A stretch of DNA of 24,666 nt from Microcystis aeruginosa W13-11 (GTDB taxonomy: Bacteria; Cyanobacteriota; Cyanobacteriia; Cyanobacteriales; Microcystaceae). Below, in pieces: positions 7,559-24,340 of this stretch (within the stretch, counting starts at the first letter, position 1; each line of letters opens with the position of its first letter). The notes under the pieces were generated by a model. The model did no database searches, was not told the origin of the DNA, and saw nothing but the letters and a program-made list of their open reading frames with translations. The DNA lies in the NCBI GenBank assembly GCA_009995705.1, contig JAADBR010000103.1:1-24666 (forward strand), given 5' to 3'. Both the position numbers and the translations under genes were made by a program.

Positions 7559-7647
7559 CTTTGGTTGACCTTTTCTCGGACTGAGAGGGTTTTGGGGTGT
7601 TGGGGTTTTTAGTTAAATTCCCCATTTCCCCATCCCCAATAAATACT

Positions 7648-8196
7648 TTAAGGTTCAATACTGACAATCCAAGTACCGACGTAGAGACGGACGGGAATAT
7701 TGCCAGAGGCAGTCACATCACAGGTAAGGTAATAAGTGCCTAATTCGGGATTTCTGACATTAGACATGACGATTTCAACTTTGCTGGTGGGATCGATCGC
7801 TTGTTCGGGGACAATTTGAATAACGCGACTATCCTTATCCCAAACCACTTCCTTTAAAGGTAAAGATTTGCCGTTGATGCGTACCTCGATTTTATTGGTG
7901 TCAAACTGGCCGTTAAAATAATCGGGATAGGAAATAAAAAAAGCTGAAGCCCCTTGGGAGAGTTTTTTCGGGGGAATATAGAGTTTATAACGATCCATTT
8001 GCTTGGGACGACCGCCAAATTGCAAGAAATAATCTAAGATATCCTTGCGATCGACTCCACTAAAAATTGTTAGGCCAGGGTTGCCATTGGCTAAAGTTAT
8101 TTTTGGTAGAATAATTCCCGCACCCACCCCTAGGGATAGAGCGATCAAAGCGGGTATCCTAGCATATTTAATTACTTTTGTCAATAGTTTTAACAT
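7648..8196 (-). CDS. DUF2808 family exported protein
   Basis: A 182-aa protein with an N-terminal signal sequence or anchor: basic residues at the start, then a hydrophobic stretch (about 14-36) ending in ITLANG. A beta-rich domain follows, with YKLYIPPKKLSQGASAFFISYPDYFNGQFD (starts at about residue 70), IEVRINGKSLPLKEVVWD and a C-terminal YYLTCDVTASGNIPVRLYVGTW. This is the pattern of DUF2808, a family of small secreted proteins common in cyanobacteria with no known function. It is likely periplasmic. The ATG at 8196 gives a normal n-region. Upstream, at 8246-8260, is a 7-1-7 palindrome that could be an operator. smpB follows upstream on the same strand, about 120 bp away, so the two are probably separately controlled. 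Confidence 0.82.
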   Translation of the reverse strand: MLKLLTKVIKYARIPALIALSLGVGAGIILPKITLANGNPGLTIFSGVDRKDILDYFLQFGGRPKQMDRYKLYIPPKKLSQGASAFFISYPDYFNGQFDTNKIEVRINGKSLPLKEVVWDKDSRVIQIVPEQAIDPTSKVEIVMSNVRNPELGTYYLTCDVTASGNIPVRLYVGTWIVSIEP

Positions 8197-8245
8197 AAAT
8201 TTTAACTCAAGGTGAAGGGGATGGTGATGGCTGCAAGGAGCCGAA

Positions 8246-8260
8246 TACAGTTCAACTGTA
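8246..8260. promoter_or_regulatory. Perfect 7-1-7 palindrome upstream of the DUF2808 gene
   Basis: TACAGTTCAACTGTA is two perfect 7-bp arms around a central C. It lies 50-64 bp upstream of the DUF2808 ATG (minus strand), a fitting place for a dimeric regulator. I do not match it to a known cyanobacterial operator; NtcA's GTA-N8-TAC does not fit. Confidence 0.3.
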
Positions 8261-8314
8261 ACAAAACTCGCTCGTTTCTTACCTAGACCTTTGCCAGTCC
8301 GATAAGTGTCTTGG

Positions 8315-8779
8315 TTAACGCTTCATCGCTCGTGCCATATCCCGTTGATCCTGACGACGTTTCAAATCTTCGCGTTTATCGTGTAATTTCTTGCCTCTAC
8401 CGAGGCCAATGCTGATTTTTACCCAACTGCCTTTAAAATACATCTTCAAAGGCACAAGAGTTAAGCCTTTCTGTTCCACTTGACCGATGAGTTTGCTGAT
8501 TTCCTTTTTGTGCATCAACAATTTTCTCGTCCGGCGCGGATCGTGATTAAAATATTCGCTACTCTGTTCGTAGGGGGAAATATGAACATTAATTAACACC
8601 GCTTCACCATTGCGGACTAAAACGTAACCATCCCGCAGGTTTACCTTACCAGCGCGCACAGATTTAACCTCGGTACCGAGCAACTGCACTCCCGCTTCAA
8701 AAGTCTCTAAAATCTCGTAGAGATGGCGTGCTTGCCGGTTATCAGTGATAATTTTGATTTTGTCGTCTTGATTGGCCAT
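8315..8779 (-). CDS. smpB: SsrA-binding protein SmpB
   Basis: SmpB binds tmRNA and delivers it to stalled ribosomes for trans-translation. The 154-aa product has the family features: the N-terminal beta-barrel region with [17 protein letters not shown] and [19 protein letters not shown] (about residues 14-52), HISPYEQ (about 67-73), [16 protein letters not shown] (about 79-94), and the basic C-terminal tail [13 protein letters not shown] to MARAMKR, which fills the decoding centre in place of mRNA. The ATG at 8779 gives the normal N-terminus; there is no clear Shine-Dalgarno. The tmRNA gene (ssrA) is not in this window. The gene is divergent from thf1. Confidence 0.97.
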
Positions 8780-8980
8780 ATAGTCAAGTGAAAAGTGAAA
8801 AGTAAAAAAGCGATTGGTAGAGGCAGTATCGGCTAATTATCTCGATTTTTCCGTGTCCTTATCTTTATATCTTACTCGCTCTTTTGCTCTCTGGGGACTG
8901 ACTGCTGGCGGCTCTTTGGTGATCACCGGCCTTGTCAGGGGGAACGAGAAGGGGGAAAATGAGAGCAGTGTTAAATTTTT

Positions 8981-9682
8981 ATGAAGTTTGGTTCTGTGGA
9001 CAAAATTCGTACTGTTTCCGATAGTAAGCGTGATTTTTATACTCGCCACACCCGCCCCATCAATTCGGTATATCGGCGCGTGGTTGAGGAATTATTAGTT
9101 GAGATGCACCTGCTCTCCGTTAATGTAGATTTCCATTATGATCCAATTTATGCCCTTGGTGTGGTTACTTCTTTCGAGAAGTTCATGGAAGGCTATCGTC
9201 CGGGGGAGGATAAACCGAATATTTTTAATGCTTTGTGCCAAGCGGTTAACGGTAATCCCGAAGTCTATCGTCGTGATGCCGAAAATATGATCGCTATTGC
9301 CAAAGAAACTAATATTGATTCCTTGCTTTCCCAACTGCAAAACCCTGCTCTAGGTGCTAACAATCAGTTGTCTGATAGTCTAGTTTCGGTGATTAATGCG
9401 CCTAAGTTTAAGTATAGTCGCCTGTTTGCCATCGGTCTTTATACTATTTTGGCCGAAGCACAACCGGACATGATCAAGGAAAAAGAAAAACGCGAACCAA
9501 TTTTGCAAAAGTTCTCAGAAATTCTGCATCTGTCTAGCGAGAAACTGCAAAAAGACCTCGATGTTTATCGCGGTAATCTCGATAAAATGGATCAGCTGCT
9601 CAAGGTTATCGAAGATGCTCTAGAAGCAGAAAAGAAAAAACGTCAACAAAAAGAACAGGAAAAACAAACCACCCTGCAATAA
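8981..9682 (+). CDS. thf1: Thylakoid formation protein Thf1 (Psb29)
   Basis: Thf1/Psb29 is needed for normal thylakoid biogenesis, photosystem II repair and FtsH protease stability in cyanobacteria and plastids. The sequence shows the conserved N-terminal block RTVSDSKRDFYTRHTRPINS, then YRRVVEELLVEMHLLSVNVDFHYDP, YALGVVTSFEKFMEGYRPGED, and SRLFAIGLYTILAEAQPD further on. The C-terminus from about residue 185 is a charged coiled coil ending in a Lys/Gln/Glu-rich tail. The length of 233 aa is normal. The ATG at 8981 gives five extra residues before V6. The GTG at 8996 would give the shorter N-terminus usual in the family, with GAAG eight bases upstream. Both are possible. No transmembrane segment is seen, consistent with peripheral membrane association. 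Confidence 0.94.
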   Translation: MKFGSVDKIRTVSDSKRDFYTRHTRPINSVYRRVVEELLVEMHLLSVNVDFHYDPIYALGVVTSFEKFMEGYRPGEDKPNIFNALCQAVNGNPEVYRRDAENMIAIAKETNIDSLLSQLQNPALGANNQLSDSLVSVINAPKFKYSRLFAIGLYTILAEAQPDMIKEKEKREPILQKFSEILHLSSEKLQKDLDVYRGNLDKMDQLLKVIEDALEAEKKKRQQKEQEKQTTLQ

Positions 9683-9819
9683 AGGCTCTCAACCGGAAAT
9701 TACCGCGTGCAGACAAGGGAATAGGGAACAGAAAAAGGATTTAATCGGCTCTCTTTCTTTACTGTTCCTTCTGACCTCGTTCTACAATTAGGATCGGCAA
9801 CCCTCAATATTTATTTCCC

Positions 9820-10956
9820 GTGACTAACTCCTCCATCACCGCACCCGTAACCGATATTTTGGCAAAAGCGCGGTCAGGGGCAAATTTATCGGCAAAAGAA
9901 GCGATTATCTTGCTAGAAACTACCGATAACCGTTTAATTGCCCAGATTCGGGAAACGGCCGACTTTTTGCGTCGTCAACAGGTGGGAGATACCGTCACCT
10001 ACGTGATCAATCGCAACATTAATTTTAGTAACATTTGTGAGCAACATTGCAGTTTTTGTGCGTTCAGACGCGATGAAAATGAAGAGGGGGCCTTCTGGCT
10101 TAATTTAGAGGAAATTATCGCTAAAGCGACGGATGCTGTCCATCGTGGGGCCACAGAAATTTGTATGCAGGGAGGATTAAACCCAAAAGCCAAGATTAGG
10201 GGCAATTCCCTGGACTATTACCTCGAAATTGTTAAAAACCTGAAACAAGCTTTTCCCAACCTGCATTTACACGCTTTTTCGCCTCAAGAAGTCCAATTTA
10301 TTGCTAGAGAGGACGGTTTAAGTTACGAAAAAGTTATCGCTTCCCTGCAAGAAGCAGGAGTCAATTCTCTGCCTGGGACAGCTGCCGAGGTGTTAGTCGA
10401 TGAGGTAAGACGGGTAATTTGTCCGGAAAAAATCGATGCCGCCACTTGGTTAGAAATAGTCGGTATTGCTCATCGCTTGGGGTTACATACCACCAGTACC
10501 ATGCTCTGTGGTCATATTGAAACCCCTAGCCAACAGGTGCAGCACCTTGAAAAAATTAGAAAACAGCAAGAAATCGCCCTAGAAAACAATTATCCAGCTA
10601 AAATCACCGAATTTATTTTATTGCCTTTTGTGGGACAATCGGCCCCCAAACCCCTGAGAAATCGAGTCGGACGGGATCAACCAATTTTAGCTGATACATT
10701 AAAATTAACAGCAGCGGCGCGGATTTATTTGGGCAATAGCATTAAAAATCATCAACCCAGTTGGGTAAAATTGAGCTTACAGGGGGCGACAGAAGCCTTA
10801 AACTGGGGTTGCAACGATCTCGGTGGTACTCTCATGGAAGAACATATTACCACTATGGCCGGGGCCCTGGGCGGTACTTGTTTGACCGTCGAGGAGTTAG
10901 AAACGGCGATTAAATCCCTCGACCGCCCCGCCCGTCAACGGGATACAATCTATTAG
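9820..10956 (+). CDS. cofH: F0 synthase subunit CofH (radical SAM, tyrosine-adding enzyme)
   Basis: CofH, a radical SAM enzyme, joins a tyrosine-derived 4-hydroxybenzyl group to 5-amino-6-ribitylaminouracil; CofG then completes the deazaflavin F0. In cyanobacteria F0 is mainly known as an antenna chromophore of photolyase. The [4Fe-4S]/SAM motif is intact at C73, C77 and C80 in [12 protein letters not shown], preceded by [21 protein letters not shown] follows the cluster and [15 protein letters not shown] lies near the C-terminus, both typical of CofH rather than CofG. The length is 378 aa. The start is the GTG at 9820; the frame before it offers nothing better. cofG is not in the window, as is usual where the two genes are unlinked. 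It converges with the dynamin cluster. Confidence 0.92.
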
Positions 10957-10962
10957 AGTCTA

Positions 10963-11013
10963 TTTAACCTCAATCCTGGATTAGCTGAAAGCTTAATCCT
11001 GTCCTGGGTTAAA
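10963..11013 (+). terminator. Large stem-loop between cofH and the dynamin cluster
   Basis: Outer arms TTTAACC (10963-10969) and GGTTAAA (11007-11013) enclose an inner hairpin, GGATTAGCT pairing with AGCTTAATCC (one bulge, loop GAA). It lies just after the cofH stop and between convergent genes, so a 3'-end or bidirectional terminator role is likely. There is no long T-run. Confidence 0.45.
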
Positions 11014-11066
11014 ACTTTCCTTCTCCCGTCCGAGTCCTGACAAAATCCCCCTAACCCGAACTGACG

Positions 11067-13373
11067 TTATTGAGAGGAACTATTTCTTTTCAAGGCAATT
11101 GCTAATTGTCTCAGTCGTTCACTAACTTCTAAATTAAATTCTTGAGATTTCAAATTGGCGGGTAATTCTGCTACAAGCTGAGGATTCTCCTTATACCATT
11201 CGTTTTGGGCGACACCTGCCCATGTTCCTTCTTTTTCTCGAAAAATATCCACTAATCCTCTTAATTCTTGAATACAGTAGGACTCAAATCCTGCAGCTTC
11301 AAAAATACCATGGCGTAGATATTCTTCAAAAGCGTTAATATCATTAGTTACTTCAAAGGTAACAACCTCTCTGGGTGGGGTTAATTGGTCAGCCAAATCG
11401 ATAACTGTATCTACTGTCATTCCGATAACGTTTTTGGCAATTTCTGTTACACCTAACACCTGTTGACGAAGATTAGGATCAAAGAGTAAATCAGAACCAT
11501 ACTTAACGTATTTTTTTAAGACTCTAAAAGCAGGTTCATCTCCTTGATAATAGTTATCAATCAGTTCCACATCAGCCCCTAAGGATTTGACAATTTGGCT
11601 GCGGGTATCACTGTTAACAGGACCGCGAATTAATGCTTCAGCAACGGGACGAGCAAATCTTAAAAATAACACTGATAAGCTATTTTCTAAGCGAGTTAAA
11701 AACTCCTGTTCTGAATAACCAATAAGTCGTTCTTTTACTTGAGAACTTCCCCATAATAAAGAGGACATATAATCGACTAATTTTAAGGCTTCATCTTTTA
11801 ATTCTGCCGCTAATTGTCGAGCAAGGGCATCCAAAAATGTTCTAACATCCCCATACAAGTCATCCCGCCAGGCATAATTAGCTTTTGCCTTGTCGAAGTC
11901 TGGAAAAGAATTTGCATCAAAAATAGTTTCTTTTTTTCTTAAAGTTTCTTGTCTTAATTTTGCCATTTCACTGGCTAACAGTTGCCCATAGCGTTCTTTA
12001 AACTTTTCGATACTACTAGAAGATTCGTTATTAACTTTTTCTAAAGGTTTGTTAATGGCAGATGTTTCATAAAAGTTTTGTAAATCAGCTTTTATCTGTT
12101 CCCATTTTCTATGCCACCATTCTGAAAAATCAATTCTTCTTCTTTCTTCTTCAAAGCGTTGTGCTTCTTCAGGATTTTCGGGAAATCTTTGACTGACAAA
12201 ATGGTGAATATCCTCTGAGGTGCTGACAATTTTATCAATGGAAGCTTGACAGCGTTTCTTGAGAATTGCCACTCGCTCAGTATTAATATAATTAAAGATT
12301 TTTTGTTTAATTTCAGGGATTCCTGTAGCTTGAGTTCTTAACATTTCATCATCTATAAGTCCAGTTAAAGTTTTTAATTTATCCTGAATATTACTGGCTT
12401 TTCCGATTTCTAATTGAGTATGTTCTTCCGCCAGATTATTTAAGATTAAATAAGCTCCTGCCGAACCAGAAACAATGCGATTAACTGGTAAATTAGCGCG
12501 TTTTAACCAATCCCGAGAGGCTTCTGTAATATGAGTTTTAAGGGCTTCTGAGCTACCGAGAGAGTCAATATGACTTAAAAAGACAAATAATTTATCAGCA
12601 ATGGTAACATTCTTATCACCTTGTTCAGTAAATTTAATAATTTCTAATTCGGCTTCTCGAATACTGCGAAAACGCTGAATTACGATGACTGCATCACAGT
12701 CGGATAACATTTGTTGGGCTTCATCAACGTGCTTGGCTAACCCAGAATCTGAACCAGGGACATCATAAAAGACGATTCCTTCTGCTTGAGCGAGTTTATT
12801 AGTATAAAGTCGGGCTGCTAGGACTGCATGGGCGTATTTTTCATCGGCAACGTATTTTTTTAGTTGTTCTCGGATGTCTTCTAGTCGAGTAAAAGGAATA
12901 ACTAAATTACCTTCTTGTCTGACTTGTTTTAGAGTGATTTCGTTTTCTCTAATAGTGTTTAAGTCTTCTTTTGCGCCAACGGTTTCTAATTCTTTGAGAA
13001 GATGAAGAAATTGTTCTTCGCTGCGGGTTTGCACTTCTAATCTTTGTTCAGATTCGCTTTTAACGGAATAAATTTGCGTGGTGGTAAAGGTACATCTTCC
13101 TCCTTTGGCAGGAAGTAAATCACATTCTAACCAGGCGTTAATAAAGGTACTTTTTCCTGCCTTTTCTAAGCCAACCACAGCAATACGAAATTCTCTTTTT
13201 CTCAGTCTTTCCAGTTGACGGTTAGCAGGTATTGCCTCTTGCAGGAGGATTTCTGTTAATTTAGAGGGAACTTCAGCTTGGGGAAGTTTGGCTAAGTCAA
13301 CGGCAAAATGTTGGATATTTAAGACATCACTGAGGCGGGTTTCATAGTAGGATGAGGCCGATTTCCAATCCAT
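11067..13373 (-). CDS. Dynamin-like large GTPase (second of the pair), 768 aa
   Basis: A bacterial dynamin-like protein: a large GTPase expected to bind and remodel membranes. The G domain is near the N-terminus after about 60 helical residues. G1 is GLEKAGKS (residues 68-75), G2 is a Thr in RCTFTTT (about 93-99), G3 is DVPG (204-207), and the G4 position holds SHID (267-270) instead of NKxD. About 500 residues of mainly helical, heptad-like stalk follow, with possible membrane-contact stretches around VDYMSSLLWGSS and NVIGMTVDTVIDLAD; no classic membrane span is visible. AAGGAG overlaps the stop of the preceding gene, 12 nt from the ATG, so the two are co-translated. It is the last gene of the cluster and is intact, unlike the first GTPase. 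Base composition is AT-richer than the housekeeping neighbours, suggesting an accessory origin. Confidence 0.87.
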   Translation of the reverse strand: MDWKSASSYYETRLSDVLNIQHFAVDLAKLPQAEVPSKLTEILLQEAIPANRQLERLRKREFRIAVVGLEKAGKSTFINAWLECDLLPAKGGRCTFTTTQIYSVKSESEQRLEVQTRSEEQFLHLLKELETVGAKEDLNTIRENEITLKQVRQEGNLVIPFTRLEDIREQLKKYVADEKYAHAVLAARLYTNKLAQAEGIVFYDVPGSDSGLAKHVDEAQQMLSDCDAVIVIQRFRSIREAELEIIKFTEQGDKNVTIADKLFVFLSHIDSLGSSEALKTHITEASRDWLKRANLPVNRIVSGSAGAYLILNNLAEEHTQLEIGKASNIQDKLKTLTGLIDDEMLRTQATGIPEIKQKIFNYINTERVAILKKRCQASIDKIVSTSEDIHHFVSQRFPENPEEAQRFEEERRRIDFSEWWHRKWEQIKADLQNFYETSAINKPLEKVNNESSSSIEKFKERYGQLLASEMAKLRQETLRKKETIFDANSFPDFDKAKANYAWRDDLYGDVRTFLDALARQLAAELKDEALKLVDYMSSLLWGSSQVKERLIGYSEQEFLTRLENSLSVLFLRFARPVAEALIRGPVNSDTRSQIVKSLGADVELIDNYYQGDEPAFRVLKKYVKYGSDLLFDPNLRQQVLGVTEIAKNVIGMTVDTVIDLADQLTPPREVVTFEVTNDINAFEEYLRHGIFEAAGFESYCIQELRGLVDIFREKEGTWAGVAQNEWYKENPQLVAELPANLKSQEFNLEVSERLRQLAIALKRNSSSQ

Positions 13374-13385
13374 TAAATTAACTCC

Positions 13386-14177
13386 TTAAATACGGTTGAA
13401 TTCTCTGAGAATAGAGACATTTTTGAGAAACCCTATCTGGATAACTTTTCCTGTTACATTAAGTGGAAGTTCTCGCTTCATTCCATACTGAGTTTCTTTA
13501 CCAATGATATTACCTCCATTTTTGAGATTAATTCTAACGTAGAATTTTAATCGACTTTCAGGAGAGCGTCCTTCGTCCGGTATAGTCTCTACAGATATTT
13601 TTTTATACTCTGGCACACATAAAAATTCTGTAGCACAATCAATTAATCTTACAACATCATCTCTATTAAGATTATACCCTTCATGTAAATTATAAACTTC
13701 TGATGCAGGAACAGCTAGACATAAAGAAGCTGTCGGACTAATTTCATTTTTAGAACGAGTCCTTTGTAGATATTTAAAACAAGTAAATGCCCCTACCATT
13801 AAACAAGCTACTGTAATAATTAATTCCATTTGGCGTTCTTCCTTTGATTGATTTGATTTTGTTAGATCAACGTTATCTAAGATATCACTTATGCCAGTTG
13901 CAAGATTTGTTGAATTAAAGTCCCCGAATTTAAGCCTTTCTACATAAACGAGCTTTGTTACATCATTAAGAAATTCACCAGACAACCTTTTATCTTCATC
14001 TAAACAAGAGGATAGATTAATTCCAAAATAACGACATAGATCATCTCTCTGAGATTCTTCTCCTTCAAGAATAATATTTAAAACATGATAGAGTACACCT
14101 CCTTTTTTAGATTTTATTTTTGGATACACAATTGCAAAAACATCTTTACAAATACTCGAAAAATATTCATTACTCAC
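13386..14177 (-). CDS. Unknown one-TM protein between two dynamin-like genes, 263 aa
   Basis: Not recognised as a named family. The N-terminal 115 residues are soluble and charged. One membrane helix follows (about 117-137, LIITVACLMVGAFTCF), then a basic stop-transfer KYLQRTRSK and a C-terminal domain of about 120 residues with alternating beta-like segments (KISVETIPDEG, RLKFYVRINLKNGGNIIG). The start is GTG at 14177 with a strong AGGAGG; this start codon shares one base with the TAG stop of the upstream dynamin gene (TAGTG), and the next gene begins 12 nt after its stop. Such tight packing implies a joint complex. By position it may be the membrane anchor or partner of the two GTPases. That role is inference. 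Confidence 0.75.
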   Translation of the reverse strand: MSNEYFSSICKDVFAIVYPKIKSKKGGVLYHVLNIILEGEESQRDDLCRYFGINLSSCLDEDKRLSGEFLNDVTKLVYVERLKFGDFNSTNLATGISDILDNVDLTKSNQSKEERQMELIITVACLMVGAFTCFKYLQRTRSKNEISPTASLCLAVPASEVYNLHEGYNLNRDDVVRLIDCATEFLCVPEYKKISVETIPDEGRSPESRLKFYVRINLKNGGNIIGKETQYGMKRELPLNVTGKVIQIGFLKNVSILREFNRI

Positions 14178-14389
14178 TAATTCACCTCCTCTTTTTCAAA
14201 ATTTTCTAATTCCGCAAGGCTTTGTTCTAAAAATTTAGCTCTTTCTTGGATAGGGTTCCATATAATTTGTGTTTCCTCGTAGTTAGTAGTTATTTCCTGT
14301 TGAGCTTTTTCTAGGCTGGCTAAATAACTATTAAAAATGTCATGGGTTTTATGATCTACATTTTTTTTTAAATTATCAATCTGTTCTAA

Positions 14390-14486
14390 TATAGCGGTAT
14401 GCAGTCGAATGAGGTATAGTGCAACAAGCTATGAGTCAGTCTAGGCAAGACTTTGTCTGTATCTCACTCAAGCGAATACCGCTATA
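14390..14486. mobile_element. 93-bp MITE with TA target duplication (IS630/Tc1-mariner type)
   Basis: The ends are inverted: TATAGCGGTAT at 14390-14400 and ATACCGCTATA at 14476-14486. The similarity continues inward, to about 23 of 30 positions overall. The element proper is 14392-14484 with a TA on each side (14390-14391 and 14485-14486). It has no coding capacity. A small internal stem (AGTCT/AGACT) is present, so the whole element can fold as a hairpin. TA duplication and palindromic structure are the hallmarks of MITEs mobilised by IS630/Tc1-mariner transposases. Excision with one TA restores the surrounding reading frame exactly, which shows it is an insertion. Its terminal TAG supplies the stop of piece 2. 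Confidence 0.85.
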
Positions 14487-15582
14487 GCCATTCAAACATT
14501 GAACATAACATTTCAGGTTCGCCCTGTTGCTGGAATTGATGAATCCAATTCTGTAAAAGAGTTTCAGTGCTTGGAATTTCTGCAATCATGCTTTCCTTTT
14601 TTTTCATCCATAGCCAGTGTTTAAAACTTCTGTAAGTACCAGAACTGATTTCAATATCAGACTCCAAATTAAAGTCAAATTCCAGTTTTCTAGTAAATGT
14701 ATTAAGTTCAGATTGTGGAAATTTTATAACAAAATTTGGTGCTTTTTCTTCAGCACCCTTTTCTATATGTTTAATATGGAATCTAAACAATTCAGATACA
14801 GATTCCTCTATTCTGTTAATCTCCTGAGCAGACACTCTCTTTAATATTTGCGATAATATGATAGTTAGATTAATTGATAAATTATTTAACTCTTTTTTAA
14901 TTATTTGAATACTTAATTTCTCTTTATCCCTTTTTGCTGTGATTAATAAACCATTTCTTGCATCTGAACCTGTATAGCCCAATTGAATCAGGATATCCAA
15001 GTTGTTTCTTAGCATATTAACCTGATTAACATTGGCCTTTTTAAAGTTGATATTGTCCAAATCAACTCTGCCATTATCTAAAGATTTAACTACTGCTTCT
15101 AAGACGTTTCTAATAACAGTCTTTAGCGCCTCTCTCCACTCAACTAAGGGAACTAATTTCTCTTGAATTTGGTCATAAGGGGGAGTAAATTGAAGTTCAT
15201 TGATAGCCTCTCTTAAACTAGCTACTAAATTATCGGCTGTTTTGGTATCAATATCTAATTTTTCAAAAACGGCTAGAGGCTGTCTTAATTTGGCATTACT
15301 AGCTTGGAGAAAAGAATCAAGATTTTCTTTTGTTTGTGATAATAATTCAGATTCTTGCTGATAATTTTCTTCCGAACTGTTAAGAATTGCCGTGGTCGTT
15401 TGTACTGCCCATTGTGCAATACTATTTCCCGCCGCTACATTAAATTTTTCTATAGCTTGGGGAATAACTAATTTAGGAAAATGTTCTGCTATGTGCTTGC
15501 TTAGTTTCTTTTCAAATTCTTCTGCATAGGATTGTTTGAATAACTCTTTAGCAATTTGTTCTTGTTGAGAGATAGTAAGGAT
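14482..15582 (-). pseudogene. Middle fragment of the split dynamin-like gene (stalk region)
   Basis: The frame is open from a TGA at 15583-15585 (inside the 106-bp insert) to a TAG at 14482-14484 (inside the MITE). It encodes about 361 residues of native sequence, rich in helices with heptad-like spacing: FEKKLSKHIAEHFPKLVIPQ, then LVASLREAINELQ, then LEAVVKSLDNGRVD and onward. There is no ATG or GTG start in the upstream half. A TTG at 15060 could open a 192-residue piece, but has no ribosome binding site. It is probably untranslated, or translated only by reinitiation. This is the stalk of the dynamin-like protein, whose GTPase domain lies upstream. Confidence 0.75.
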
Positions 15583-15690
15583 TCAGGTGTCTCAAATGCA
15601 GTCACAGAGCGGCTTCTAAAATCTCAGAACTCGCTAAACTAACAGTTTTATTCTCAATAAGCACGAAAATTAAGGCTTTCAGGAGATAGT
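15569..15690. mobile_element. 106-bp insertion of unknown type with 8-bp target duplication
   Basis: GAGATAGT occurs at 15569-15576 and again at 15683-15690, bracketing 106 bp (15577-15682) that encode nothing. Deleting insert plus one copy (114 bp) keeps frame and joins two halves of one gene. The insert has no obvious inverted ends. Instead, AAGGATTCAG at its left and AAGGCTTTCAG at its right are similar in direct orientation. A short stem (AAACT/AGTTT) lies inside. An 8-bp duplication occurs with several IS families, so this may be a non-autonomous derivative or the residue of a larger element; I cannot name the family. Confidence 0.7.
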
Positions 15691-16815
15691 CCATTGTTTA
15701 GGATCAAGATTTAAGTTTCCTCGCTTCATCATTTCCTTAATTAAAACTTGAAAGTTATCTATGGCTTGCTCATAGGGTTTTAATACTTTCTCAAGTCTAG
15801 TTTGATCATGCTCTGACCAATTTTCCTCTCTTTTAGGTAATTCCTCTAACAGATCCTGAAGCAATTTCTTATTATCCTGAATTTGTAAAGCTAATAAGGC
15901 TGGCCATGTACTCAGTTTTACAATTCTCAAATTTTCAATATCTTCTCTATATTCTCTTAAATTCTCGATCAGTTTTTCCTTAATGTTTTCAGTCGTTTCT
16001 TCAACAAACTCACTTTCGCTTTCTTGCCAATTATCATCTGATCTGAATATATCAATTCGATTTAAAATAAATAGCATTCGTGCAGGAGAGCCGCCTAAAT
16101 CTTTAACTTGATCAACAACTTCTGATAACAAATTATCAACTTTGTAAGGATCTGTTTCTGCGCTGTTATATGTTACTAAACATAAAGCTTCACGACATTG
16201 TTTGATAATCCCAAGATTTCCCTCATCTCCTACATAAGATAACCCGGGTAAATCTAATAATTTAACTCTAACCCCTTTAGGCAATTCTAAGAAACTTTCA
16301 TCTTTAACCAGTCTAAAAGGATAATAAATAATAGATCGAGGATAAGCTAAATCAGGTTGTTTTTTTCTGGCTTTAATATAAGCCTTCATTAACTGTTTTA
16401 AGCGACTATAAATATCTTCATCGCTAATCTTTTCCCATTTCCCGCATTCCCACAACGCCCCCGGTGTTTCTTCAATAATTAAAGTCTTTTCTTCGCTATA
16501 CTCAATGGTAACTGTTCCTGCACTCATTTCTCGCTGTGCCATCGGTACAATATCAGCACCACAGAGGAAATTAACTAAGGTACTCTTACCACTGCTCGTT
16601 GTGCCAGTCGTCGCTAAAATCAGGGTAGGATGGCGCAATTCATTGATTAACACTTCTAAAGCTTTCTCTAGGTTACTAGAAAGTTCGTGGATTTCACCAT
16701 GATAGGATTCAGGCAAATGCCGAATAATCTCCGTTTTGAAGTCACCCCAATAACCCGCTAGAAGGTTAGCTTTATTTTCCACTGCTTGGAAAACTTCGTA
16801 AGATTTTTGACTCAT
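15679..16815 (-). CDS. N-terminal GTPase fragment of the split dynamin-like protein, 378 aa
   Basis: This is the only part of the split gene with a proper start (ATG at 16815). It carries a complete G domain: G1 GTTSSGKS (residues 71-78), G2 within MSAGTVTIEY (about 97-106), G3 DLPG (188-191) and G4 NRID (252-255), followed by helical sequence to WTIS and a TGA supplied by the 106-bp insert. If stable it would be a GTPase domain without the stalk needed for oligomerisation, so it is probably non-functional or dominant-interfering. In the G domain it is clearly different from the 768-aa partner (canonical NRID here against SHID there), so the two are a heterologous pair and not a recent duplication. 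Confidence 0.82.
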   Translation of the reverse strand: MSQKSYEVFQAVENKANLLAGYWGDFKTEIIRHLPESYHGEIHELSSNLEKALEVLINELRHPTLILATTGTTSSGKSTLVNFLCGADIVPMAQREMSAGTVTIEYSEEKTLIIEETPGALWECGKWEKISDEDIYSRLKQLMKAYIKARKKQPDLAYPRSIIYYPFRLVKDESFLELPKGVRVKLLDLPGLSYVGDEGNLGIIKQCREALCLVTYNSAETDPYKVDNLLSEVVDQVKDLGGSPARMLFILNRIDIFRSDDNWQESESEFVEETTENIKEKLIENLREYREDIENLRIVKLSTWPALLALQIQDNKKLLQDLLEELPKREENWSEHDQTRLEKVLKPYEQAIDNFQVLIKEMMKRGNLNLDPKQWTIS

Positions 16816-16850
16816 AATACTCTACCGCTGACAGAATAAGCCACAACTTT

Positions 16851-16879
16851 ATTATAACGATAATTTTTTTTCTTGCCTA
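16851..16879 (-). promoter_or_regulatory. Candidate promoter of the dynamin cluster
   Basis: On the minus strand TATAAT (16856-16851) is a perfect -10, with TAGGCA (16879-16874; four of six matches to TTGACA) 17 bp upstream. It lies about 35 bp before the ATG of the first GTPase gene, giving a short leader. The spacer contains a run of eight A. Confidence 0.5.
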
Positions 16880-17071
16880 GATCTCCTGCAAAAATCAAAA
16901 ATCTTCCCTTATGTAAAGAGACGAAAGACAGGAGGAGAAAAAAGACAAAAAACAAATACACTCTCGATAAAACCCAAGATTATGTCAAATTTATCTGAAG
17001 TTTTAGATATTTTGAACCGATGGCTCCTCGATAACTTACTTTTACAGCAGGTCTCCTTTAATTCTCCTATT

Positions 17072-17563
17072 CTAAACTGGCAAAAAGTCAAAATCTATAA
17101 TTTCTGCAAAGGTATAAGGACAAACTTGCGGAAACGTATCAACAGATAAACCAGTTTTTTTGATCACCGATCGCTTGGCTTTATCATAAATTATATCTAA
17201 CCTAGAAGCCCCATAATTGTAGAGGGTTTTTGACTGGAATAAAATTTCTAGTTCTAGACGGAAATTATCGATTTCATCGGCCAATCCCTGGCCACAATTA
17301 CCTTTTTCAGTCAGCCAATACTGATACATTAATAAATGTTTAACGGTTTGAATTAGATAGCTTTCCACTTGGTTTCTTTGTTCTCTCCCCAAATCTTCTA
17401 TCTCCGTTAAAAGATGTTCCCAATCTAAATTTTTCATCTCCCCGCGTCGAATTTGTTCGGTGGTTCGCTCAATCCACAAAACAAAGTCCTGATCATAAAG
17501 CTGTTTTAATTCTTCCAACTGCATAGATTTTTGAGATTGAGCCGCGCTTTTATGATCAATCAT
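17072..17563 (-). CDS. DUF29 family protein
   Basis: DUF29 proteins are small helical proteins abundant in cyanobacteria, with no proven function. The family pattern is clear: LYDQDFVLWIERTTEQIRRGE, then LDWEHLLTEIEDLGREQRNQVESYL, then HLLMYQYW. The C-terminal half is more divergent. Two ATG starts are possible. The one at 17563 gives 163 aa but lies inside a perfect palindrome five bases from the psaB terminator. The one at 17521 (MQLEELKQLYDQDF) gives 149 aa, closer to the usual family N-terminus. Neither has a Shine-Dalgarno. I list the longer form without strong preference. There is no room for a promoter between the psaB terminator and the longer start. Confidence 0.83.
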   Translation of the reverse strand: MIDHKSAAQSQKSMQLEELKQLYDQDFVLWIERTTEQIRRGEMKNLDWEHLLTEIEDLGREQRNQVESYLIQTVKHLLMYQYWLTEKGNCGQGLADEIDNFRLELEILFQSKTLYNYGASRLDIIYDKAKRSVIKKTGLSVDTFPQVCPYTFAEIIDFDFLPV

Positions 17564-17566
17564 AAA
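17549..17566. promoter_or_regulatory. Perfect 18-bp palindrome at the DUF29 gene start
   Basis: TTTATGAT-CA-ATCATAAA has two perfect 8-bp arms with a 2-bp centre, overlapping the upstream ATG candidate of the DUF29 gene and lying 28-45 bp before the second ATG at 17521. It would suit a dimeric repressor if the second ATG is the true start. No known regulator is matched. Confidence 0.35.
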
Positions 17567-17567
17567 C

Positions 17568-17600
17568 AAAAACCCCCCACCAATGGGCGGGGGGTTTTTT
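17568..17600 (-). terminator. Rho-independent terminator of psaA-psaB
   Basis: A5C6 (17568-17578) pairs with G6T5 (17589-17599) around a 10-nt centre, only about 18 nt after the psaB stop. Reading on the minus strand the GC stem is followed by five T, a G and three T. It is symmetrical enough to work in both directions. Confidence 0.88.
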
Positions 17601-17618
17601 AGTTACCTGATTCAAGGT

Positions 17619-19832
17619 TTAGCCGAACTTGCCAGCAGTGGAAGCGATCAAGAAGGCGGCGTAGGTGAAGATATAGCCAACGGTGAAGTGAGCTAAACCA
17701 ACCAAACGAGCCTGAACGATCGAGAGAGCCACGGGTTTGTCTTTCCAACGAACCAGGTTCGCCAGAGGAGTGCGTTCGTGGGCCCAGACGATAGTTTCGA
17801 TCAACTCTTGCCAGTAACCACGCCAAGAGATCAGGAACATGAAACCGGTTGCCCAAACGAGGTGTCCAAAGAGGAACATCCAGGCCCAGACAGAAAGGTT
17901 ATTAACACCGTAGGGGTTGTAACCGTTGATTAACTGAGCCGAGTTAGCCCAGAGGTAATCGCGGAACCAGCCCATCAGGTAGGTGGAGTTTTCGTTAAAC
18001 TGAGCCACGTTACCCGACCAGACACCGAGGTGTTTCCAGTGCCAGTAGAAGGTTAACCAACCCAGGGTGTTCAACATCCAGAACATGGCTAGGTAGAAGG
18101 AATCCCAAGCAGAGATGTCGCAAGTACCGCCACGGCCCGGACCGTCGCAAGGGAAGGAATACCCGAAGTCTTTTTTATCGGGCATTAATTTGGAACCACG
18201 AGCGTCTAAAGCACCTTTAACCAGGATTAGAACGGTGGTGTGTAAACCAAGAGCGATCGCATGGTGAACGAGGAAGTCGCCAGGACCGATGGTTAAGAAG
18301 AGGGAGTTAGTGCCGCTATTGATTGCGTCTAACCAACCGGGTAACCAAACATCACCGTAGTTGGGATAGGCGGTGTAAGCGATACTATCGGGGTTAGACA
18401 ACAGTACGTTCATACCGTACAGGGTTTTACCGGAAGCTGCTTGCACGAATTGAGCGAACACAGGTTCGATCAAGATTTGTTTTTCGGGAGTACCGAAAGC
18501 GACAACCACGTCGTTATGAACGTAGAGGCCGAGGGTGTGGAAACCTAAGAAAAGGGAAACCCAGCTTAGGTGAGAGATGATCGCTTCTTTATGCTCCAGC
18601 ATCCGCGCCAGCACGTTATCTTTGTTCGCTTCGGGATCATAGTCACGCACGAAGAAGATAGCACCGTGGGCGAAAGCACCCACCGCTAGGAAACCAGCGA
18701 TGTATTGGTGGTGGGTATAAAGAGCCGCTTGGGTAGTGTAGTCCTTAGCGATAAAGGCATAAGGGGGTAGCGCGTACATATGCTGCGCCACCAGAGAGGT
18801 GATCACGCCTAAAGAAGCCAGTGCCAAACCGAGTTGGAAGTGGAGAGAGTTGTTAACCGTGTCATAAAGATTTTTGTGACCGGCTCCTAACTTACCACTG
18901 GGGGGTCTGTGGGCATTGAGGATGTCCTTGATGCTGTGACCGATGCCCCAGTTGGTGCGGTACATATGACCAGCCACAATGAAGATCACAGCGATCGCCA
19001 AGTGGTGGTGAGCCATATCGGTTAACCAGAGGGACTCGGTTTGGGGATGGAAACCACCTAAGAAGGTGAGAATCGCAGTTCCCGCGCCTTGGGCAGTACC
19101 GAAAATGTGACTAGCCGTATCGGGGTTTTCTGCATACACACTCCAGTTGCCGGTGAAGAAGGGTAGTAAACCCGCCGGGTGGGGGGGAGTGGAGAGGAAG
19201 TTGTCCCAACCAACGTGCTGACCGCGGGATTCGGGGATAGCAACGTGAACGAGGTGTCCGGTCCAAGCCAGAGAGCTAACACCGAACAGAGCGGCGAGGT
19301 GGTGGTTCAGGCGAGATTCAGCGTTTTTGAACCAAGCGAGGCTAGGACGGAACTTAGGTTGTAAGTGTAACCAGCCAGCAAAGAGGAAAATCGCCGAGAG
19401 AATCAGCAGGAACACCGCACCTTGGTAGAGGTCTTGGTTGGAGGTCATCCCGATGGTGTAGAACCAGTGGTAAACCCCGGAATAGGCGATGTTAACCGGA
19501 TTAGAAGCGCCAGCTTGGGTGAAGGCATCCACAGCGCCTTTACCGAACTGGGGATCCCAAATCGCGTGGGCGATGGGACGGATATTTAAGGGATCTTTGA
19601 TCCACTGCTCGAAGTTGCCTTGCCAAGCGACGTGGAATATAGTGCCGGAAGTCCACAGGAAAATGATTGCAATGTGGCCGAAGTGCGACGCGAAAATCTT
19701 TTGGTAGAGATTCTCTTCCGTCATGCCATCATGACTTTCAAAATCGTGGGCTGTGGCGATCCCGTACCAAATCCGACGGGTGGTCGGATCTTGGGCTAGA
19801 TCTTGGCTAAATTTAGGGAATTTAGTTGCCAT
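17619..19832 (-). CDS. psaB: Photosystem I P700 apoprotein A2
   Basis: PsaB forms with PsaA the heterodimeric core of photosystem I in the thylakoid membrane. It binds half of the electron transfer chain (P700, A0, A1) and many antenna chlorophylls. The protein is full length at 737 aa, beginning [16 protein letters not shown] and ending ASTAGKFG. The FX iron-sulfur cluster ligands are present as C562 and C571 in [12 protein letters not shown]. Numerous His-rich membrane helices are visible (for example NHHLAALFG and [10 protein letters not shown]), fitting the 11-helix fold. It follows psaA after 178 bp that contain a hairpin, and is followed by a strong terminator. The start is the ATG at 19832. 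No broken residues were seen. Confidence 0.99.
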
Positions 19833-19968
19833 AGCTGTTTAGGAAATTCTCCTCTCTAAATAACTGAGGCTCTTACACGAGTGCTGGTTATTTCCTTTTT
19901 TAAATTCACCTTCTGTAATAGGAAACGCTTACAGAGGTATCGGTCAATCGACGCCCGTTGAGCCTAGT

Positions 19969-19995
19969 CTTGCCAATCCCTGGGGGACTGGCAAG
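19969..19995 (-). promoter_or_regulatory. Stem-loop in the psaA-psaB spacer
   Basis: CTTGCCAATCCC (19969-19980) pairs with GGGACTGGCAAG (19984-19995) at 11 of 12 positions with a 3-nt loop, 15 nt after the psaA stop. No T-run follows on the minus strand, so it is more likely an mRNA stability, processing or partial attenuation element than a full terminator. Confidence 0.6.
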
Positions 19996-20010
19996 CCCTT
20001 ATAGGCAAGT

Positions 20011-22260
20011 TTAGCCAATCGAGAGACTTCTGGCCAAGAAGAATGCCCAAGTGGTGACAATACCGCCTAAGAGGTAGTGAGCCACACCAACGGCACGACC
20101 TTGAATGATGCTCAGGGCGCGAGGTTGGATAGCGGGGGCAACTCTTAACTTGTTGTGCGCCCAAACGATCGACTCGATTAATTCTTGCCAGTAGCCGCGA
20201 CCACTGAACAGGAACATCAAGCTAAACGCGAAGACGAAGTGACCAGCTAGGAACATGATTCCGTAGGCAGACAGGGCAGAGCCATAGGAGTTAATCACCT
20301 GAGCTGATTGCGCCCAGAGGAAATCGCGTAACCAACCGTTGATGGTGATGGCACTTTGGGCGAAGTTACCGAGGGTAACGTGGGTGACAGTGCCATCGGG
20401 GGCGACGGTTCCCCAGACATCGGACTGCATTTTCCAGCTAAAGTGGAAGATTACAATCGAGAGGGAGTTGTACATCCAGAACAGGCCGAGGAAGACGTGA
20501 TCCCAACCCGAAACTTGGCAGGTACCGCCGCGACCGGGACCATCGCAGGGGAAACGGAAACCGAGATTTGCTTTATCCGGAATCAGACGGGAACCACGAG
20601 CGTAGAGAACCCCTTTGAGGAGAATCAACACGGTGACATGGATGGTGAAGGCGTGGATGTGATGCACGAGGAAATCGGCAGTACCGAGAGTGATCGGCAT
20701 CATGGCCACTTTGCCACCCACTGCCACTACGTCGCCACCGAAAGCATAACTAGCGGTAGTGAGAGCGTTAGGAGCGGTGTTGCCGGGGGCTAGGGTGTGG
20801 AGACTTTGTACCCATTGGGCAAAGATGGGTTGTAGTTGAATTCCCGTATCCGAGAACGTATCTTGGGGACGACCAAAAGCCCGCATGGTGTCGTTGTGAA
20901 TGTATAAACCGAAGCTATGGAAGCCGAGGAAAATACATACCCAGTTCAGGTGGGAGATAATTGCGTCGCGATGACGGATCATCCGATCGAGCAGGTTATC
21001 CACGTTTTTGGCCGGATCGTAGTCCCGCACCATGAAGATCGCTCCGTGCGCTCCCGCACCGACGATTAAGAAGCCACCGATCCAAGTGTGGTGAGTGAAC
21101 AAGGATAGTTGGGTGGCGTAGTCAGTCGCCTGATAGGGATAGGGCGGCATGGCGTACATATGGTGGGCCACGATGATGGTTAGCGAACCTAAGAGAGCCA
21201 GGTTAATCGCTAACTGGGCGTGCCAAGAGGTGGTCAGGATTTCGTACAGTCCTTTGTGACCCTGACCGGTGAAGGGACCTTTGTGGTTTTCGAGGATTTC
21301 CTTCATGCTGTGACCGATACCCCAGTTGGTACGGTACATATGACCAGCAATAATGAATAATACAGCGATCGCCAAGTGATGGTGAGCGGTATCGGAAAGC
21401 CAGAGACCACCAGTCACGGGGTTCAAGCCACCTTTGAAGGTGAGGAAATCCGAGTAAGCACCCCAGTTAAGGGTAAAGAAGGGGGTCAAACCCTGGGCGA
21501 AACTGGGATATAAATCCGCCATCTTGCTCGGTTCGAGGATGAACTCGTGGGGCAAGGGGATATCTTGGGGAGCGACTCCCGCATCGAGGAGTTTGTTCAC
21601 CGGTAAAGAAACGTGAATCTGATGACCGGCCCAACCTAGGGAACCTAAGCCGAGTAAACCCGCCAAGTGGTGGTTCATCATCGATTCCACGTTTTGGAAC
21701 CATTCCAGTTTCGGTGCGCTTTTGTGGTAATGGAACCAACCGGCAAACAGCATCAGGCCCGCCATAACTAAACCACCGATAGCGGTGCAGTATAGCTGAT
21801 AGCTGTTGGTGAACCCGGAAGCCCGCCAGAGGTAGAACAGACCAGAGGTGATCTGAATACCGTGGAAACCACCGCCCACATCGCCGTTGAGGATGCCTTG
21901 ACCGACGATCGGCCAGACCACTTGGGCGCTGGGTTTGATGGCGAGCGGGTTGGTTAACCAAGCTTCATAGTTAGAAAATTTCGCGCCGTGGAAGTACATT
22001 CCACTTAGCCAAACGAAGACAACGGCGAGATGTCCGAAGTGGGCGCTGAAGATTTTCCGAGAAATATCTTCGAGATCGCTGGTTTGACTATCAAAATCGT
22101 GGACGTTGGCGTGTAGGTTCCAAATCCAGGTGGTGGTTTTGGGTCCTTTGGCTAAAGTGCGATCAAAATGCCCCGGTTGACCCCACTTCTCAAAGGAAGT
22201 AGGTACTGGGTCTTTATCTACAATCACTTTAGCTACCGCCTCTTTGGGGGGGAGTGCCAT
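20011..22260 (-). CDS. psaA: Photosystem I P700 apoprotein A1
   Basis: PsaA pairs with PsaB as the photosystem I reaction-centre core. The protein is full length at 749 aa, from [20 protein letters not shown] to LARSLSIG. The conserved N-terminal [20 protein letters not shown] follows the variable start. The FX cluster ligands are C572 and C581 in [12 protein letters not shown]. Chlorophyll-binding His-rich helices such as [17 protein letters not shown] and [14 protein letters not shown] are intact. The ATG at 22260 has GAGGAGAA about eight bases upstream. It is first in the psaA-psaB operon, with a long unannotated leader region upstream. No truncation or missing ligand was seen. Confidence 0.99.
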
Positions 22261-22766
22261 GAGGATTCTCCTCTCTCGACAATAGACTTAGCGTTTTATT
22301 TGAGGATAGATTTTTTAACCTAAAAAAGGCAAGTTGAAATCTGACCCACCTTTTGTTAATGTCGCTTGACTTTCCTCTTGGGTGAGATTCCAGTCGAAAG
22401 CATCAATAGTAGATGATAAGTCTTTGTTCTCTCCTCTGTTCGTTGTGCTTAACAATAATTAAAATTCTCTCAATCCTTGATAGGAGAGACATTTTCTGCT
22501 ATGGACGGTCTTAGTCAGGGTCAGATCGGTAATTTTTCTTTACAAAAGTTTATTAATTGTCCCCCCAGAAGCCGATTTCCCCCTTTTCTCCCTCACCAGA
22601 CCATATAGAAAATTCAATAGATAGATTCTCAAAAAACAATCAAACAATTCTGTAGAATTGAGACGATAACCTGATCTTCTCGCGCTTTTGCTGACACCAG
22701 AGCATTCAATGACTCTGGCAAAAATCAATGGTTTGTATAGATTTTGGCCTTGGCTCTAGGAGGAAC
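22261..22766. other. Shared psaA / lipoprotein upstream region, about 500 bp
   Basis: This gap separates the divergent psaA and lipoprotein genes. On the psaA strand it contains a 46-codon open frame (22455 to 22315, TTG start) ending about 55 bp before psaA. TTTACAAA at 22539-22546, followed after 4 bp by a poor second half (TATTAATT), resembles the HLR1 site bound by RpaB at photosynthesis genes; only one half matches well. I could not place a convincing -35/-10 for psaA. On the plus strand the last 20 bases carry the lipoprotein Shine-Dalgarno. Confidence 0.45.
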
Positions 22767-23999
22767 GTGCTATCCCTACTACATAAATTAATCCCAGTCA
22801 AAACCCTTCGCATATGTCTTGTGATCGGTTTACTGACCACCCTGTTAACCGCCTGTGGCGATCGCTTGACGGCCAGCAATCTCCCCACTTCCGAAACCTC
22901 TAATCTTCCCGTCCTCCAAGGCCGCATTTCTGAGGTTGCTCCCCCCTCCCTAATTCAGGAACTGCGCCCCAGTTTAGAGCGTTACGCCCCCCAAGTAACC
23001 ATTCTCAGCCCTCTGGCCGAACAAGTTTTCGATGACACCCAGGTGATAGTTAAACTACAAGTGTCAGATCTGCCAATTTTCCAAGACGATACCCTAAAAC
23101 TAGGCCCCCACTTGAGCCTAATTGTCGATAATGAACCAGCAGCCGCTATTTACGATCTCAAACAGCCGATTATCCTAGAAAATCTTGCCCCTGGTACTCA
23201 CACCCTCCGCGTCTTGGCCCTGCGGCCTTGGCAGGAAAGTTTTAAAAATGATGGGGCATTTGCTGAAACAACCTTTCATATTCTGACAAAAACAGGCAAA
23301 AATGCTCCTGATCATAACTTGCCCTTATTAACCTACAGTAGTCCGCAAGGAATCTACGGTGCAGAACCGATCCTGCTCGATTTTTATCTGAGCAATGCTC
23401 CTCTACGTCTGTCCAATACTGCCAACGAAGATAATAATCTTCAAGATTGGCGCATTCGTGTCACAGTCAACGGTGAAAGCTTTCTGCTTGATACTTGGGA
23501 ACCGATCTATCTCAAGGGTTTTAACAAGGGCAATAACTGGGTACAACTAGAATTTATCGATGGTCAGGGAAATAAAGTCGAAAACGAGTTTAATACCAGC
23601 GTGCGCGTGATTAGCTTTGATCCCTCTTACCAAGACGGCCTCAGTCAATTAGTCCACAGCGATTTATCCCCTACAATTGCCCGTAGCATTGTTGATCCCA
23701 ACTATCAAACTATTCCCAGTCCAGAGGAAGAAACCCCTGTCGTTGAGGAAACCCCTGTTATTGAGGAAAACCCCGTTATTGAGGAAGAAAGCCCTATAGT
23801 TGAGGAAACCCCTGTTATTGAGGAAGAAAGCCCTATAGTTGAGGAAAAACCAGTAGAGACAGAAACAGTCGAAAAGCTAGAGGAAACCCCTGAAGCGATC
23901 GAATCTCCCCTAACCACCATACCAGACACAAAGGAGATTAACAAACCGGCCTCCGTTATTCAGCCTCCGCTAAAAGTGGAACCTATTCCCGAACCCTAG
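22767..23999 (+). CDS. Cyanobacterial lipoprotein with Glu/Pro-rich repeat tail
   Basis: Not a named family. The N-terminus is a lipoprotein signal: basic and hydrophobic residues ending in LLTTLLTAC, with the acylated Cys at residue 30 from the GTG at 22767. That GTG has AGGAGG three bases upstream (short spacing); the frame also runs back to an ATG at 22728 without a Shine-Dalgarno. A beta-rich, Ig-like-looking body follows (about residues 60-320), with VTILSPLAEQVFDDTQVIVKL and LAPGTHTLRVLALRPWQ. The C-terminal about 85 residues are a disordered tail of ETPVIEE/ESPIVEE repeats encoded by tandem DNA repeats. The product is probably an envelope lipoprotein whose tail spans the periplasm or wall. 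The TAG at 23997 is followed by 47 more in-frame codons that look coding, so it may be truncated. Confidence 0.78.
   Translation: MLSLLHKLIPVKTLRICLVIGLLTTLLTACGDRLTASNLPTSETSNLPVLQGRISEVAPPSLIQELRPSLERYAPQVTILSPLAEQVFDDTQVIVKLQVSDLPIFQDDTLKLGPHLSLIVDNEPAAAIYDLKQPIILENLAPGTHTLRVLALRPWQESFKNDGAFAETTFHILTKTGKNAPDHNLPLLTYSSPQGIYGAEPILLDFYLSNAPLRLSNTANEDNNLQDWRIRVTVNGESFLLDTWEPIYLKGFNKGNNWVQLEFIDGQGNKVENEFNTSVRVISFDPSYQDGLSQLVHSDLSPTIARSIVDPNYQTIPSPEEETPVVEETPVIEENPVIEEESPIVEETPVIEEESPIVEEKPVETETVEKLEETPEAIESPLTTIPDTKEINKPASVIQPPLKVEPIPEP
23724..23850 (+). repeat. In-frame tandem repeats coding the Glu/Pro tail (39-bp period)
   Basis: A 34-base stretch at 23775-23808 recurs exactly at 23814-23847, a 39-bp period coding 13 residues around the words VIEEESPIVEE. 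Shorter, degenerate units (EETPVVEETPVIEENP) lie before it. Every unit keeps frame, so copy number can vary without breaking the gene. Confidence 0.8.
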
Positions 24000-24143
24000 A
24001 ACAATAGCGAGGAAAAAATCACCATTTTTGATCGCGTTCAACAAACCTTAAATCGCCTCCAGTTACCCTCTCCCCCAGCAGAAAAAGATATCGAACTACC
24101 CACCCTCGATCCTCAATTATTCGGCAATGTCGAGCGGTCTTAG
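24000..24143 (+). other. In-frame coding-like extension after the lipoprotein stop
   Basis: Directly after the TAG at 23997-23999 the same frame continues for 47 codons, starting NNSEEKITIFDRVQQTLNRL and ending LFGNVERS, to a second TAG at 24141. It has an amphipathic helix and a Pro-rich link like the protein before it. This is best read as the original C-terminus cut off by a nonsense change, or as a readthrough extension. Confidence 0.5.
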
Positions 24144-24190
24144 AGCCTAGCTTAATCCAGTTTTCAGGGGAAGTGAGGAGGTGGGGGTTT

Positions 24191-24220
24191 TTCAGTGAGC
24201 AGTAAACAGTAATCAGTGAA
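24191..24220. repeat. Dispersed intergenic repeat (ATCAGTG type)
   Basis: CAGTGAGCAGTAAACAGTAA and the following TCAGTGAA form tandem-like CAGTRA words. AGTAATCAGTG at 24208-24218 is identical to 3260-3270. It is the same class of short cyanobacterial intergenic repeat as that after pdhA. Confidence 0.45.
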
Positions 24221-24340
24221 AAGAAAGTTCCCAAGTTTGGTTCTATTGGAGTTAAAGTGATGAGCTTATCTTATCGAAAAAAGGGTTAGATACAGAAGCC
24301 AAAAACCTAACTAATACTATCCAAAATTACTCATGACTTG

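Follow-up and report, generated by a model that had tools for sequence, protein, structure and literature searches.

Probable disruption of an accessory dynamin-like GTPase gene of Microcystis aeruginosa W13-11 by non-autonomous transposable elements from two families

The interrupted locus

The window analysed here is the whole 24,666-nucleotide stretch (positions 1 to 24,666, forward strand) of contig JAADBR010000103.1 from Microcystis aeruginosa W13-11 (assembly GCA_009995705.1), the source strain. Its minus strand contains, from 16815 to 14177, a gene for a dynamin-like GTPase, referred to as DLP1. This region consists of a single gene and two inserts, each coding piece being open in one frame. 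The features of the gene are as follows:

14177..16815, minus strand: DLP1, interrupted dynamin-like GTPase gene (alignment with four intact homologues; Dynamin_N domain in the N-terminal piece; 809 codons in intact relatives)
15679..16815, minus strand: N-terminal open reading frame (ORF) with the GTPase domain, 378 amino acids and a stop (codons 1-375 and three more)
15683..15690, minus strand: left copy of the 8-bp repeat ACTATCTC
15577..15682, minus strand: insert 1, 106 bp (108 bp counting the next AC), read as the right-hand part of a 201-bp transposable element; in-frame stops
15569..15576, minus strand: right copy of the 8-bp repeat ACTATCTC
14487..15576, minus strand: middle coding piece, codons 376-739; the first in-frame ATG, GTG or TTG is codon 548
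14392..14484, minus strand: insert 2, classified as a 93-bp miniature inverted-repeat transposable element (MITE) with ends TAGCGGTAT and ATACCGCTA; TA at 14486-14485 and 14391-14390
14180..14389, minus strand: C-terminal coding piece

When aligned with all four intact homologues (genomes G001, G003, G009 and G002), the source strain has two extra stretches in the gene, 15690-15577 (114 bp) and 14486-14392 (95 bp). The former equals the 106 bp of insert 1 plus one copy of ACTATCTC, the latter the 93 bp of insert 2 plus TA. Insert 1 brings six in-frame stops; insert 2 brings two and shifts the frame. The stop codon of DLP1 (TAG, 14179-14177) shares one base with the GTG of the next gene, as a preliminary description of this DNA had stated for the rebuilt gene, and the same one-base overlap between an 809-codon DLP1 and the next ORF is found in G001 and G003.

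Intact homologues and protein family

Uninterrupted homologues are present in four of the 12 other Microcystis genomes compared, coding for 809 (G001 and G003), 823 (G009) and 800 (G002) amino acids without internal stops. Both inserts are absent from all four loci, and the protein of G001 is continuous across the two sites, reading WTISQQEQ and SMFEWLLEQIDN. The preliminary description had proposed one gene of 809 codons, two unrelated inserts whose removal gives an uninterrupted frame, and unbroken homologues across both junctions. These proposals are borne out by the genes of exactly 809 codons in G001 and G003, by the empty sites in relatives and by the recurrence of each insert elsewhere in Microcystis. 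Homologues that keep the inserts, or separate proteins that end at the present boundaries, had been named as evidence to the contrary. Retention of the inserts is rejected by the four intact loci, and none of 13 inspected database proteins ends at an insert boundary, although clusters at 90% identity could conceal such members. The nearest Microcystis genome compared is G001, sharing 43% of the sampled words of the window; in a scan of named genomes, the N-terminal ORF had 97% identical matches at two loci, in Microcystis sp. LSC13-02 and M. viridis FACHB-1342.

The Dynamin_N domain of Pfam is recognized above the curated score in both the N-terminal piece (expectation value, E, 1.8e-11) and the intact homologue of G001 (E 1.6e-10), and inspection of the sequence finds the GTPase motifs of the N-terminal piece intact. 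The prediction that annotation would miss the gene is thus not wholly correct, as the 378-amino-acid ORF still matches this domain. In the structural model of the G001 homologue (mean predicted local distance difference test score 81.6), neck and trunk helices surround the GTPase domain, an arrangement that the pieces of the source strain cannot encode. Along its length the model resembles BDLP and SynDLP, the TM-scores being modest, and from the domain together with the predicted fold intact DLP1 can be assigned to the bacterial dynamin-like proteins. One homologue, P0032, is 1279 residues long, contains the Dynamin_N domain twice and looks like a fusion of two DLP1-like copies.

The two inserts

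Because both inserts recur elsewhere in Microcystis, their chance origin is excluded. The 106-bp sequence of insert 1 has six matches across five of the 12 genomes. These copies extend further left than that of the source strain; the copy in G012 is 201 bp long, starts with GTAAGGATTCAGG, finishes with CCTGAATCCTTAC and is bordered by a target duplication of 8 identical bases (8/8). The source strain retains the right-hand 108 bp of this element and only its right end, both ends being present in G012. The view of insert 1 as a complete 106-bp element was therefore ruled out. Its shortened form was not found whole elsewhere in the 12 genomes.

We read the apparent 8-bp repeat as 6 bp of true target duplication plus an AC common to the element end and the target. 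A full insertion would have added 201 + 8 bp; with 95 bp missing, 93 from the element and 2 from the duplication, the observed 114 bp result. The left half was probably deleted after insertion, and the reduced target duplication in the source strain fits this loss, which is a third event at the gene besides the two insertions. The preliminary description was thus right about the presence of an insert here but took it for a 106-bp unit with an 8-bp duplication; its two independent insertions do involve different families, with the deletion to be added.

Insert 2 has the marks of a MITE: a length of 93 bp, inverted terminal repeats (TAGCGGTAT and ATACCGCTA), many copies and no transposase, and on these marks it is classified as an intact one. 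There are 103 matches, 73-99% identical, in 11 of the 12 genomes and none in G001. TA stands on both sides of the insert in the source strain and in all 15 distinct copies inspected among the 103 matches. Such targets suggest a transposase of IS630/Tc1 type.

Selection on DLP1 and lesions in relatives

Over codons 1-375, the N-terminal piece differs from G001 by 14 synonymous and 11 non-synonymous substitutions, with a ratio of non-synonymous to synonymous rates (dN/dS) of 0.19. The middle piece, the only other part for which the ratio was calculated, has 7 synonymous and 4 non-synonymous differences (dN/dS 0.14). As substitutions still look purified, in the manner of a working gene, the break is recent. 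The low ratio dates the break and says nothing for adverse selection; two insertions in one gene are likewise weak evidence of selection, because a gene that is already dead can take another insertion at no cost.

In a survey of 50 genomes of the family, with DLP1 counted at E 1e-60 or better, seven genomes have the gene and five of them have it open (G001, G002, G003, G009 and G050). In G043 it is broken by an 821-bp insertion of the IS1 family with an 8-bp duplication, CTATTATT; in G030 we read a tandem duplication of 19 bp with a resulting frameshift. Just the first 69 bp remain in G006, fused to a damaged 3' part of gene 3, the second dynamin-like gene of the locus (L037 8049-8958); this gene 3 remnant also has an insertion of about 98 bp. 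Some database homologues are truncated, to 704 or 651 residues. One 651-residue allele occurs on 57 contigs, and the 704-residue form could stem from an error in a run of A. Matches to DLP1 or gene 3 at E 1e-20 are missing from seven of the 12 Microcystis genomes. In a comparison of flanks, which left out G005 and G007, similarity to the window ends at 17055 or 17056 in G004, G010, G011 and G012 (within the stretch compared) and at 17502 in G008.

Relaxed or adverse selection against DLP1, as suggested in the preliminary description, is only partly supported. The unrelated lesions in G030, G043 and G006 and the truncated alleles speak for it; the dN/dS values of 0.14-0.19, the prevalence of intact alleles and the five intact genes among seven family genomes count against a general trend to loss. 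Nor is the damage limited to DLP1: G030 has a shortened gene 3 and G006 a damaged one, the gene 3 of G043 stops close to a contig end, and gene 2, which lies between the two dynamin-like genes, is short in G003.

Interpretation and alternatives

We conclude, with a probability of roughly 0.9, that in Microcystis an accessory gene for a dynamin-like GTPase was disrupted by two transposable elements, both non-autonomous and each from a different family. Element 1, a member of the 201-bp family, sits after codon 375 and lacks its left half; it probably inserted whole and was later cut by a deletion. Element 2, the TA-flanked 93-bp MITE, sits after codon 739. Transposases encoded elsewhere presumably mobilised both in trans. 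All that can still be produced is a piece of 378 residues that has the GTPase domain, lacks the trunk and is probably non-functional.

Several observations weigh against this conclusion. The copy numbers of the inserts come from the 12 other Microcystis genomes, the assembly and reads of the source strain not being among the data. At 22 loci with about 1.5 kb of flanks, no full element with a transposase ORF between ends like those of insert 1 was found. Most database alleles of DLP1 are intact, the best 24 matches listed being all full-length at 809 amino acids and one of them representing 162 sequences. Finally, the fragments still have the dN/dS of a functional gene; a recent break would account for this, but so would a retained N-terminal piece.

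This last point leads to the possibility that the 378-residue GTPase is kept for a function of its own, for example as a regulator of the second dynamin-like protein. Its dN/dS of 0.19 and intact GTPase motifs would agree with that, as would the presence in the database of other proteins of about 380-430 amino acids with a Dynamin_N domain. The middle piece, which is not fully translatable, has an equally low ratio, however, and the ratio therefore reflects the time before the break; the short database proteins may stem from contig ends or from other lesions. We regard such retention as very unlikely. Neither does a division of labour between a GTPase piece and a trunk piece, as leoC and leoB may show in Escherichia coli, seem at all probable. 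It has in its favour that the first dynamin-like gene of LeoABC is described as divided into two genes (PMC4159319), that insert 1 is predicted to sit between the GTPase domain and the trunk, and that the N-terminal piece is a clean 378-codon ORF with low dN/dS. Yet 172 codons of the middle piece are without any ATG, GTG or TTG start, so the pieces cannot jointly replace the DLP1 protein. Moreover, insert 2 severs the last 70 codons, where the sole start is a GTG three codons before the stop, and no inspected database protein (0/13) ends at the boundary of insert 1. A functional split was rejected on this start-codon evidence. Errors of assembly at repeats would be a further explanation, since both elements are repeated and the raw data of the source strain were not at hand, but the inserts together with their duplications correspond to empty sites, and the shortened insert 1 occurs whole nowhere else in the 12 genomes. 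Ordinary sequencing reads are longer than about 100 bp, the approximate size of each insert, and we consider this explanation extremely improbable.

The neighbouring genes and the third repeat

The interrupted gene belongs to a three-gene cassette composed of DLP1, the variable small gene 2 and the conserved second dynamin-like gene 3. These neighbours and one further repeat are located as follows:

13386..14177, minus strand: gene 2, 263 amino acids, open; ribosome-binding-like GGAGG ahead of its GTG; N-terminal part variable, C-terminal part conserved
11067..13373, minus strand: gene 3, second dynamin-like GTPase, 768 amino acids, open
16879..17054, minus strand: third repeat element, 176 bp, in the spacer upstream of DLP1

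Both downstream genes are thus open, as originally described. Gene 3, with a gene 2 ORF in between, accompanies DLP1 in all seven genomes that have it, the eighth gene 3 match being the remnant in G006. The cassette also lies behind psaB in G043 and G050; in G030 no psaB is present within the 9 kb examined. Across three other genera (L101, L102 and L103), gene 3 is 84-92% identical, compared with 66-71% for another protein of the window (9823-10956), while DLP1 reaches 47-88% and gene 2 34-53%, depending on the part. At synonymous sites gene 3 has diverged less (dS 0.55-0.82) than psaB, for which dS is 1.1 and 2.0 in the two genera whose compared DNA includes psaB; this suggests that gene 3 was transferred between genera.

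Within Microcystis the DLP1 alleles are mosaic. The G009 gene is like the window until about 15375 and then falls to about 60% identity, that of G003 diverges between about 16545 and 15690 and is alike elsewhere, and a patch of 90 bp (15465-15376) is similar in each of the four intact genes. Pieces of BLAST alignments had hinted at a recombination breakpoint exactly at insert 1; this was dropped, as a sliding comparison puts the changes near 15375 (G009) and near 16545 and 15690 (G003).

In gene 2 the C-terminal part, about 110 residues long, is conserved and the N-terminal parts are exchangeable; we also read a hydrophobic stretch near residues 113-134. The gene 2 of G003 (L034 5693-6148) codes for only 151 amino acids and has a different short N-terminal part similar to P0244-P0247. 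Another homologue, P0243, has a different N-terminal part with a weak match to ribosomal L12 (E 1.6e-4, under the curated score). Foldseek gave no match to the gene 2 fold at E 0.001 or better, gene 2 had no match in phages at E 0.01, and DLP1 had no near match in plasmids. The cassette looks as if it were under diversifying exchange, which genes involved in conflict often undergo.

The 176-bp element, which is present in many copies and has matches in all 12 Microcystis genomes, is the only other insertion of at least 50 bp relative to L002 over 7635-24282. The DLP1 spacer lacks it in G001 and G009; G002 and G003 have it next to an intact DLP1, and G006 has it next to the remnant. As a cause of DLP1 loss it was ruled out by its position next to the intact genes. 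AGG stands on both sides of it in the source strain, and no common target duplication is evident in the flanks of seven loci. Elsewhere in the window, an in-gene repeat region (23727-23847) differs in copy number, L002 having about 114 bp more. No tRNA was found in the window or in nine further loci, and no Rfam family reached its gathering score in the window. A scan for promoters and terminators gave 17 against 12.2 +/- 3.7 in shuffles, and 3 against 1.7.

Comparison with known systems

A Microcystis sbp gene split by a 187-nt MITE of ISL3 type has been described (PMC11448079). The two cases share a MITE that splits a protein gene, a target duplication and many genomic copies, and differ in that DLP1 was hit by two other families, one of them partly deleted. 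The disruption of DLP1 is a further MITE-made pseudogene, an ordinary gene loss in a genus known for MITE-split genes.

Tandem arrangement is described as usual for bacterial dynamins, and LeoABC of enterotoxigenic E. coli has its first dynamin-like gene split into two (PMC4159319). From what is described there, that locus shares with ours neighbouring dynamin-like genes in one orientation, with the first one divided; in the DLP1 cassette, however, a small variable gene lies between and the division is due to transposable elements. Neither LeoA nor LeoBC matched over most of its profile: the LeoBC model of PADLOC matched the N-terminal piece at E 4.2e-5 over profile positions 50-247 of 601 only, LeoA at E 0.032 over positions 50-106 of 559, and LeoBC matched gene 3 at E 0.024.

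In overall fold, the model of the intact homologue is similar to SynDLP of Synechocystis and BDLP of Nostoc (PMC10104851; PDB 7zw6, 2j68/2j69), but identity is just 11-14% in the structural alignments, and a search of PDB sequences with DLP1 found neither protein. A role in phage infection is reported for DynA of Bacillus and thought possible for SynDLP (PMC10104851), and a study of blooms is described as counting dynamins among cyanobacterial defence systems (PMC11265339). For the DLP1 cassette itself, its variability and patchy occurrence would be circumstantial evidence of protection against phages. We found no publication on the DLP1 cassette in Microcystis among open-licence papers.

Significance

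We tentatively propose, at somewhat less than even odds, that intact DLP1 would be a membrane-remodelling GTPase working together with the gene 3 protein, possibly for the repair of membranes or for defence. A broader view, more speculative and in our opinion rather doubtful, is that the pseudogene would be one of the losses suffered by a mobile conflict cassette with two dynamins, which diversifies fast and follows psaB in cyanobacteria of three genera (g1, g11, g14). Sequences that stay conserved (psaAB, roughly 90 codons at the start of DLP1, the 15465-15376 patch and gene 3) might then let variable modules, the GTPase core on one side and the trunk with gene 2 on the other, swap by recombination, and DLP1, as a costly effector, might be repeatedly switched off by whatever lesion comes first.

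It is the cassette that may matter. Its last dynamin gene is conserved across genera, and its first and middle genes are strongly variable and, in several relatives, missing or broken. Such strains are naturally occurring knock-outs of bacterial dynamins, and a connection with conflict or membrane repair can be put to the test.
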